Positions 60,221 through 64,000 of a stretch of 64,000 bases of DNA are shown here, piece after piece. Under the pieces are notes generated by a model. The model was not told the DNA's origin and did not search any database. It was given only the letters and a program-made list of their open reading frames with translations. Positions within the stretch are counted from its first letter, which is position 1; each line of letters begins with the position of its first letter. The stretch covers positions 2,542,001 through 2,606,000 of the forward strand of contig NC_134036.1 of the NCBI RefSeq assembly GCF_964204645.1, in the 5' to 3' direction. Origin of the DNA: Tubulanus polymorphus. Lineage: Eukaryota > Nemertea > Palaeonemertea > Tubulaniformes > Tubulanidae. Both the position numbers and the translations under genes were made by a program.

Positions 60221-63200
60221 ATGGATTTGTCGCCACAAGACTCGCGTCTCCTCCTGACTGTTACAGGTAAGCTATCTAATCGTATCATATTGATTCATTA
60301 AGAATGAGAAGTCGTCACTAGTAACTGATCATAATTTTACTGAATCGTTGAAGTCATCGAGAATGAGAAGGTCGTCATTAGTAACTAATCATAATTTTAC
60401 TGAATCGTTGAAGTTATTGAGAATGAGAAGGTCGTCATTAGTAACTAATCATAATTTTACTGAATCATTGAAGTTATCGAGAATGAGAAGGTCGTCATTA
60501 GTAACTAATCATAATTTTACTGAATCGTTGAAGTTATTGAGAATGAGAAGGTCGTCATTAGTAACTAATCATAATTTTACTGAATCATTGAAGTTATCGA
60601 GAATGAGAAGGTCGTCATTAGTAACTAATCATAATTTTACTGAATCGTTGAAGTTATTGACAATGAGAAGGTCGTCATTAGTAACTAATCATAATGTCAC
60701 TGAATCGTTGAAGTTATTGAGAATGAGAAGGTCGTCATTAGTAACCAATTATAATTCTAGCAAAAATCTAACTGAAGCAAAAAACTACAAAGACAATTTT
60801 CTAAACTATTTGTTTCTGTTTAAGTTTGGTTAGCCGTGCTTGCCGCGGTGGCTGCGCAAATGACCAATGCGACGTTAACCAATCAAGAATACGTGACACC
60901 GGTCATGATAAAGCAAGGTGGCGCTACCAGCATCAGTTACTGCCCCCAAACCGACGATAAAGAACCCGGATGTCACTGCGACTCAATTTGTGACCTGATC
61001 GGCCATTGTTGCCCGGAAGTACCTTGCGTTCAAATCACCAACGCGGATGACCTGGCCAGACGAACGGAAGTGATGCACAAACGCGTACACGTGACCTGCG
61101 CAACAATCCCCTTCCTTAACGACGACGGCAACATAGCAACCGAAGACTACCATTATTTCCTGGTAGGTGTATGCCCGGTTGAATACCCGGACACGACGGC
61201 CAGGGCGCTGTGTACGGACAACGGACAGGACGACGACTACCGCAACGGTATTCCGGTAATCGGACAACGAACCGGACTACCGTATCGGAACAAGCACTGT
61301 GCCGCGTGTCACGGTGAAACCGCCGTACAACCACTAGGCGAACCGGTCCTATACTGCCACAGCGACATCTACCGGAACGACAGCGAACTCTTGGAGTATT
61401 TGACAAGTGGCGCAATGAATCTGACACACGGAAGGAAACTGCCTCCGAATTGCCTACTGAAATTCGTAAAACCGCCACCAGGTGACGCTTCCGAGTCGAT
61501 ACTGCGACGATGCTCGCCCCAATGGTGGTACAGGTTTAACGGGGTAGGATTCTATCAGCCGATGAAACCGATACCCGCCGCTCAGCTCTACGCGGTTCTG
61601 TTCGCCATCGCTCGCAACACGACCGATTGTCTCTACTGTAACGGCATACACAAACCCGTCTCTCAAATACTCAACGGACAACTGGTCGAGTATCGAAACC
61701 AGTTCTGTATCACGTGTCTCAGCAACGGCGCCGCGGTCGACCCGGACACACTAGCCTGCCCGCGTCCGAATCCGTCAGTAGCGCCACCGCGGGCGACTGT
61801 CCCGATGTTCGAATTTGGTGACGAGGACGATCCGTTAGATGACATTGAACGGCCTCGCCCTGATTTAGAGAAAGCCTGTTACCGCCGATCGCTAGTTTAC
61901 AACTACGAGACCAGTAACTGTACTGAGTACGGATGTCCGTTCGGGTATCGCACGCAGCCAAACGACTCTAACACGTGTACGCTGGATGAACGATCCGTCA
62001 ATGTCAAGGTCACCGTACAAACGAAGGTCACGTTGAGGTCACGACGTCATGAATCGCCGCTGGAGTTCATCGTCCAGAAATACCGATGCGGACTGCGGCG
62101 AGGAGTCGACTCGCTAACAATCCGAAACGCCGAGTCCGTTTCCGAGTCCGGTTCGGCGATAGAAATTAACGTGACCTTGACCTCGCACTTGTACATGAAA
62201 CCGCTCGTAATGGCGGCGAAGAACTATAGCACGATCGACGAAATCGAAATTTTGATGTCGACGAAACGCGCCGCGTTGCGATGCGTGTTTAACGCGACCC
62301 CTAGCGGCGACGATTCTTCACCGACGGCTACATTTCTGCACATCACGCAGCGTGTGACGTCAGAAGTCGCCGCGTCGCCGACTAGAGTCACGTGTAGAAG
62401 TCGCAAGTTCATTATCGGTACTAACTCGAAATTCAGTTTGTATTGGTCACCGTCGTCAAACGATGCGTCGTTTCTGGGCACGATTTGCTCCGTCGAGGCG
62501 GACACCTGTTTAATGAAGGCGGCGCCACTGTACGGAAACCACACACGAATCACTGCGGCTTACACGGAATGCGCGACTACGCGTACCCGCAACAAAGTAC
62601 TGGGGACAATAAACAGAGGAGGGAGCGGGAGTCACCACCAGGGGGCGGCCGCTGTTCAAATAATGGCGGAGGCACTTAACATCGAAATGAACCTGCACGA
62701 AATAACGGGCGGGGCGACCTCTATCGTCGGTCTCTTGGCCGTTGTGGTCGTCCACGCCGTCGTGCCGGCGCTGAAATCCTCCACGCCCAGTTACATGTTC
62801 CTCAACGTCTGCCTGGCGGCCATCTTGAGCAACGTACTGCAACTATCGAATCAATTTGTCGCCGGTAGAGACAGTGTCGTCTGCGATCTGTACGCTGCTG
62901 GTAAACACTACGCCTGGCTGGCGATATTCGTCGCTTTAAACGCGATGGCCGTATCCACCGTACGCGAGCTCCAACACGCCGCTAGTGGCGACCTCCAGCG
63001 GCCAAGCGCGCGTACTCTCACCACGTTCAAGTACCTGGCTTACACTTGGTTCACCCCGCTGCCGATAGTCGGCGCCACGGCGTTTTTACATTTTCGCCCG
63101 ATCGTACCCACGCTTTACAAGAACATCTATAACATCGACGGCTTCTGCGAGCTCTCCACCGACGCGATCGCCATCTATACGCTGGGTATAGAAACAGGCG

Positions 63201-63571
63201 TTGTCTTATTGGTCAATCTAGCCCTATTCATATTCACGGTCTATCTAGTATTCGCTCATGGGGTCAGCCGGCCGTGGATTCGCAACCTGATATCAGTTCA
63301 TATACCAATGTTTGTCGTCATGTCGACATCTTGTCTGGTTATCTGGTTGACAACGGTGCTGATTGCCACAGGTAGTTCCGATAGTCTAATTCTGAAGATA
63401 TTTGTTATAATCGTCATAGGGTATTCTAGTGTAGTTACGACAGTAGCGTTCCTGTTGAACCCTCGAGTCGTCCGGTTGACCTACAAGCACGCGGTCGCCG
63501 CCTGGAGGCGTCGCGAGAAACTACGACAGCCGCAACAACGCCATCCTCCCTCTGCAGGGACTCGAACCTGA
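60221..63571 (+). CDS. Somatomedin-B-like domain plus seven-helix receptor (adhesion/Methuselah-like), 2 exons, 927 aa
   Basis: Exons 60221-60266 and 60834-63571; phase 1 join (ACA G | CC GTG). Exon 1 starts MDLSPQDSRLLLTVT and together with AVLAAVAAQ forms a signal peptide, which exon 2 alone would lack. Residues 52-80 hold seven Cys in a somatomedin-B pattern (CHCDSIC, then CC). A long Cys-rich, multiply N-glycosylated ectodomain runs to about 635. Seven helices follow at about 640-895, with MFLNVCLAAILSNV in helix 2, as in secretin/adhesion-type receptors. I see no GPS autoproteolysis motif before helix 1, which argues for a Methuselah-like or orphan subgroup. The last nine residues (HPPSAGTRT) and the stop come from a transposon inserted at 63542. 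Ligand unknown. Confidence 0.85.
60267..60833 (+). repeat. Intron filled by a 60-bp minisatellite, about 7.5 copies
   Basis: Intron of the somatomedin-B receptor (donor GTAAGC, acceptor TTGGTTAG). From about 60300 to 60750 it is a 60-bp tandem repeat with start GAATGAGAAGGTCGTCATTA. Neighbouring copies alternate between two variants (CGTTGAAGTTATTGA / CATTGAAGTTATCGA), so the effective unit is 120 bp. As 60 is a multiple of three, one frame stays open for 161 codons, an artefact of the repeat. The same repeat, inverted, fills an ADAM10 intron. Confidence 0.9.
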
Positions 63572-63881
63572 TGGCATCGCTACACTCAGCCACGGCACGA
63601 ACCCCTGCATCAGTAGACCGGGTGCGCATGTACATGCGCAGCTTTCCGAACGAAAACTGGCGGCACCAATCAGATTGCTCGTTGTATTATCGCTGAGGTA
63701 AATTTCAAGGAATAACTATAAATGGGAAAAACCCGGGCTAAAATAAAACGGGATTTCTGATTGGCTAAAAATCACATCATCTGAACTGCGCATGTATCTG
63801 CGCACACGGTCGATTATGGCAGGGTTTCGTGCCGTGGCAATCTCGATGCCATCAGGTTCGAATCCCTGCCGGGGGAGGATG
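63542..63881. mobile_element. 340-bp foldback / Mutator-like MITE with 9-bp target duplication
   Basis: Starts CATCCTCCC and ends GGGAGGATG. The ends form imperfect inverted repeats of roughly 110 bp (both contain ATTCGAACCTGATGGCATC-like and CCACGGCACGAA blocks in mirrored positions). Perfect direct repeats CAACAACGC flank it at 63533-63541 and 63882-63890. A 9-bp duplication is typical of Mutator-type transposases. No ORF inside, so it is non-autonomous. Each arm holds a tRNA-like B box (GGTTCGAATCC). Confidence 0.88.
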
Positions 63882-63890
63882 CAACAACGC

Positions 63891-64000
63891 CAGAAACTAT
63901 CAACAACACCTGATCAGCAAAAATAAGCAACCGCTACACCGCCAGAGACCCTTGTCACGCGCTACCCGATCAGCAAAAATAAACACCCGCTACACCGCCA
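63891..64000 (+). repeat. Former C-terminal codons of the receptor, then a start of a ~56-bp repeat
   Basis: Directly after the second target duplication the receptor frame continues as QKLSTTPDQQK and a TAA stop at about 63924-63926, the pre-insertion ending. The block GATCAGCAAAAATAA plus CCGCTACACCGCCA then occurs twice up to the window end. Confidence 0.7.

Follow-up and report, generated by a model that had tools for sequence, protein, structure and literature searches.

Does the receptor gene at this locus owe the end of its protein to a transposon and, if so, what was the element and what did its arrival change? The window (the whole 64,000-nucleotide stretch analysed, C12:2542001-2606000 of the 268-Mb assembly of Tubulanus polymorphus) holds a receptor gene whose last coding exon, exon 2, contains an insertion. 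The original prediction was that a transposon had replaced the receptor C-terminus here, and this is supported by the duplications at the insertion site, a family of copies elsewhere in the genome and an intact frame; the predicted position and size of the insert (340 bp), its 9-bp duplications and both peptides (HPPSAGTRT-stop and QKLSTTPDQQK-stop) were reproduced exactly. Based on features read directly from the DNA (the element, its target duplication, its family, the new tail and a helicase-bearing relative), we consider it very probable that a miniature inverted-repeat transposon (MITE) exchanged the tail of a GPCR, and that this element derives from a helicase-bearing, most likely AcademH, parent. 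The features on which the argument draws are collected in Table 1.

Table 1. Coordinates of the receptor gene, the inserted element and related loci (window positions unless a chromosome handle is given).
Feature	Position	Strand	Basis or remark
Receptor exon 1, coding part (ATG..GTTACAG)	60221..60266	+	donor CAG/GTAAGC, 11.2 bits (simple matrix)
Receptor exon 2, native coding up to last shared codon (..RQPQQR)	60825..63541	+	paralogs
Target duplication, left copy CAACAACGC, perfect 9 bp	63533..63541	+	
Non-autonomous TIR transposon (MITE), 340 bp, imperfect palindrome	63542..63881	+	family copies, fold, termini
5' inverted-repeat arm, ~100 bp	63542..63641	+	pairing with 3' arm
Element-derived coding end HPPSAGTRT and stop TGA	63542..63571	+	same 30 bases in family consensus
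AATAAA in element, candidate early poly(A) signal	63742..63747	+	present in family consensus too
3' inverted-repeat arm	63786..63881	+	pairing with 5' arm
Target duplication, right copy CAACAACGC, perfect 9 bp	63882..63890	+	
Displaced native end QKLSTTPDQQK-stop	63891..63926	+	now in 3' untranslated part
Receptor-expansion sites	G000, C1:28190320-28203107, C9:3.59-5.19 Mb, C4:21.28-22.02 Mb and others		
Candidate AcademH parents, decayed	L093/L099 C3:14383522-14386400; C2:15097716-15097980; C8:3319976-3324382	- (C2)	DUF6589 nearby on opposite strand (C8)
Seven 131-bp junction loci	C7:13062852, C6:12912925, C1:17550439, C3:19147301, C2:10720287, C11:4445230, C6:14382634		

The insert runs from CATCCTCCC on the left to GGGAGGATG on the right, and its 3' arm pairs with 63542-63579 at 92% and with 63589-63641 at 83%. 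The resulting hairpin is far more stable than expected by chance, with none of 100 shuffles equally stable (DNA fold, z = -14.1; RNA fold, z = -15.1). Although the edge sequence at this locus alone also permits a 12-bp duplication (GCAACAACGCCA) through chance identity at the edges, the 9-bp reading is preferred because the family copies share boundaries at the same bases. It had also been claimed that the old frame resumes exactly beyond the second duplication. Joining the flanks does give the displaced native end and its stop, but this carries little evidential weight, because the host frame is bound to return whenever an insert is excised together with one duplication, and a stop soon follows in any frame. 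Each arm also holds an exact RNA polymerase III B box (63855-63865 on the plus strand, 63558-63568 on the minus strand); the two point outwards and are the only exact ones within the window, and in the reverse complement of the 5' arm an A-box-like TGGCTGAGTGT lies about 13 bases ahead of the B box.

A genome search recovered dozens of copies of the element at 97-98% identity. The 38-mer at its 5' end matches the genome at 766 sites when up to 3 mismatches are allowed, the 27-mer at its 3' end has 1,949 matches, and the reversed controls have none. Exact 9-bp duplications directly abut the CATCC../..GGATG termini in 21 of 31 copies with flanks, five more have an exact 8-bp duplication and two have 9 bp with one mismatch. 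The family shows the features by which MITEs are defined: a length of 339-340 bp, no coding sequence, inverted termini, a fixed-length duplication, high copy number and homogeneous ends. The element is one of hundreds of near-identical copies, and the insertion, though genuine, belongs to a familiar class of event.

Read from either end, one of the three frames of the element gives HPPSAGTRT or HPPPAGIRT followed by a stop, and the remaining frames stay open for 21-69 residues. Another copy, at C10:1050948-1051287 with a further one 1.1 kb from it, contributes the last 21 residues of a 262-aa open frame; it has no target duplication, and the frame has no Pfam match. It is a long shot that the family serves as a mobile cassette for C-termini and 3' ends, delivering nine residues and a stop, an AATAAA and a strong hairpin; if it did, repeated insertions near gene ends would lead to receptor tail variants segregating in the species.

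The open frame (60824-63571, 915 aa) ends in RQPQQR followed by HPPSAGTRT and the stop, and the predicted receptor product is 930 aa long with a hydrophobic start. The name under which the gene was first described, somatomedin-B receptor, is roughly right. The receptor itself falls below detection with the Pfam 7tm_2 model, but homologs at 24-27% identity match it (6e-18 to 9e-23 in the three members tested), and judged by this homology the receptor probably belongs to the large secretin/adhesion-type GPCR family. The somatomedin-B domain (PF01033) scores 15.7 bits against a Pfam cut-off of 23.1 (E 0.019), which is below threshold; a degenerate copy of the domain is possible. Members of the receptor family are encoded mostly by one long exon, and relatives of the window receptor form a large, partly clustered expansion with 65 matches in the genome. 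Paralogs close enough to reveal the ancestral tail are absent from the genome, the nearest being 24-27% identical. Most of the receptor's only intron consists of a 60-bp minisatellite (60297-60756; 7.7 copies at 94%).

In the course of events that we propose, a miniature inverted-repeat transposon from an abundant family with recent activity would have inserted by cut-and-paste in the final coding exon of a gene for a secretin/adhesion-type GPCR, and 9 bp of the target would have been duplicated. The frame would meet the element at its first base, so that nine inverted-repeat codons would be translated before a TGA and eleven native residues would be swapped for nine; the seven-helix core would be left untouched and the remainder of the element carried in the 3' untranslated part of the mRNA. 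The receptor now ends in RQPQQRHPPSAGTRT, while the flanks joined minus one duplication give RQPQQRQKLSTTPDQQK and a stop. Past the comparable point after helix 7, the aligned paralogs have tails of 10-30 residues with no sequence common between subfamilies; measured in the same way, the tail of the window receptor goes from 34 to 32 residues, near that range. Because the paralog tails are short and unrelated, the site looks tolerant of change, and a small effect of the tail exchange on the receptor seems likeliest. We found no usable splice donor in the stretch from helix 7 to the new stop (the best GT in 63430-63568 scores 0.5 bits vs. 11.2 for the real donor), so splicing that removes the new stop while keeping helix 7 is unlikely. 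The displaced native end falls within a short tandem repeat of 56-bp units, in the first of them; the repeat spans 63888-64000 of the window and continues into L001, and its second unit repeats GATCAGCAAAAATAA.

The insertion may also have affected the gene beyond its last codons. The strong hairpin takes in the receptor's last codons, and the AATAAA that the element shares with its family consensus lies 170 bases 3' of the new stop, where as a candidate signal it could end transcripts early. It is thus conceivable, if unlikely, that the insertion broke the 3' end of the gene, with the AATAAA or the very stable RNA hairpin (-187 kcal/mol) cutting expression; the locus would then be a pseudogene in the making and its nine-residue tail irrelevant. 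Against this, the 915-aa frame has no stop despite 1.5% private change in the element, and with about one indel per five substitutions in the sampled copies, a rate that comes from hairpin elements and may not hold for coding sequence, several frameshifts would be expected in 2.7 kb if it were unconstrained. The open frame is a weak argument for constraint on its own, because 22% of receptor frames would stay free of stops under neutrality at 1.5% divergence (stops alone); counting indels too would make decay of the receptor still less likely. The intact 2.7-kb frame suggests that the gene probably still works with its new tail.

How long ago the tail was exchanged can be gauged from the element itself. 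The window copy differs from the family consensus by five substitutions and one inserted A (1.5%), none of them common to 29 other loci, which were picked as best matches and are biased toward young copies. In a second sample, 16 copies selected solely for a perfect match over the 5' 38 bp, the 14 full-length copies carry 1-11 substitutions (median 4), which places the window copy, with its five private substitutions, at a typical age for the family and not among the youngest. Recent movement of the family is indicated by several copies that do not differ from the consensus. The original prediction took the perfect duplication as a sign of a young, perhaps polymorphic event, an argument weaker than it looks because at 1.5% divergence the 18 duplication bases would stay perfect in about three of four pairs, which makes a perfect 9-bp duplication weak evidence of youth; the five private substitutions and one insertion are typical for the family.

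These observations also bear on whether both receptor tails are still present within the species, the insertion being a low-frequency polymorphism. Recent activity of the family, with its several copies matching the consensus, is consistent with this, and a highly heterozygous species could still segregate an insertion of 1.5% age. However, the window copy is typical rather than young (median 4 substitutions in the 14 copies), and no empty haplotype was found in the assembly, in which the receptor locus is single. We regard such a polymorphism as decidedly unlikely; the insertion is presumably fixed or common.

A longer relative of the element came from sampling copies on the 5' end alone, the interior being ignored. 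At about C3:14383522/14383532 (L093/L099), the first 150 bp of the element are present at 94% and are followed by decayed helicase pieces, with frames past the junction that read TKTGSGKS, SPLISIMEEQ, FCCPETLL and ALTATTS in L099. The first part of L099 is a DEAD/DEAH helicase (Pfam DEAD, 6.7e-10) with WRN and RECQ helicases as best PDB matches. The element/helicase junction is common to ten loci: it recurs at full query length at C2:15097716 (95%) and C8:3319976 (93%), and seven further loci match 131 bp past it at 92-94%. Because it recurs, we take the junction to reflect how the parent family is built rather than a single accidental nesting; the end of the match after 131 bp at the seven loci suggests a second internal-deletion subfamily.

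Further domains lie close to these relatives. About 0.9 kb beyond the C8 helicase copy there is a Helicase_C match (C8:3321118-3321438), and the genome's best match to DUF6589, the putative Academ transposase, lies on the opposite strand, 3.5 kb from the C8 helicase region (C8:3323933-3324382). There are only seven DUF6589 matches genome-wide, a second of which, on C1, has a 53%-identical helicase about 5 kb away. By our estimate, chance would bring a DUF6589 match to within 5 kb of one of the three helicase copies in roughly one case per thousand.

According to PMC10045372, AcademH transposons encode a helicase and make duplications of 9 or 10 bp (citing Kojima 2020, Mob. DNA 11:15), while AcademX transposons encode a nuclease and make duplications of 3 or 4 bp. 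The exact duplications of the present family (9 bp in 21 of the 31 copies, 8 bp in 5 more) point to AcademH, as does the decayed RecQ-like helicase encoded by the relative with the same 5' 150 bp; given the 9-bp duplication and this relative, the element is best filed as non-autonomous AcademH-type. The likeness comprises 9-bp duplications, inverted termini, a RecQ-like superfamily-2 helicase in the longer relative and a second transposon-like gene (DUF6589) beside the helicase. The difference is that the element here is a 340-bp internal-deletion form, with parents known from their 5' side and a transposase link that is a candidate. Its parent was apparently an AcademH-type transposon, of an unusual sort that carries a helicase, with a candidate transposase. 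The element would have arisen by deletion from a longer TIR transposon with a RecQ-like helicase gene; that transposon most likely belonged to the AcademH lineage, and its proteins would have mobilised the element and probably move the family.

Other identities of the element would leave the effect on the gene unchanged in at least one case, that of a MULE/Foldback-type derivative. MULEs make duplications of ~9 bp, long palindromic ends fit them, and MULE-domain matches number at least 56 genome-wide, a lower bound. Yet the element termini occur in none of 20 MULE loci searched with 1.5-kb flanks, the matches listed include none on C8 and none less than 1 Mb from the three best relatives with a helicase, and the helicase in those relatives is not a MULE hallmark. 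A MULE origin finds no support in these comparisons, and we think it improbable. KolobokH, whose target duplication is TTAA, does not fit the 9-bp duplications of varied sequence. A pair of inverted tRNA-derived SINEs, suggested by exact B boxes in both arms (GGTTCGAATCC and GGTTCGAGTCC; even one arose in only 15 of 20,000 base shuffles), is most implausible and was rejected, since the Rfam tRNA model and ARAGORN find nothing in the element, every copy has the same inverted repeats at its ends together with 9-bp duplications, and neither an A-rich tail nor a variable 3' end is seen.

A probable AcademH-type MITE in the last exon of a receptor has partial counterparts elsewhere. PMC6824096 describes a wheat exon with a 307-bp miniature element, likewise a short element within a coding exon; the present case differs in that the genome is an animal's, the last codons were struck and the tail alone was exchanged. 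In the SMN protein, according to PMC4969610, the C-terminus is altered by the Alu-like exon 6B, so that there too a host protein ends in repeat sequence; that element is intronic and spliced, whereas the receptor has a direct last-exon insertion for which splicing is unneeded. The type of event is already known, and what is added here is the link between an abundant MITE and helicase-bearing parents.

The locus offers a base-resolved case in which a transposon swaps the end of a signalling receptor, with the rest undisturbed, in a family whose tails diverge freely, and it shows how receptor tails can be altered by a single event. In addition, an animal MITE family of very high copy number is tied to a rare transposon lineage that carries a helicase, and the coordinates of the decayed parents let the mobilising proteins be sought.
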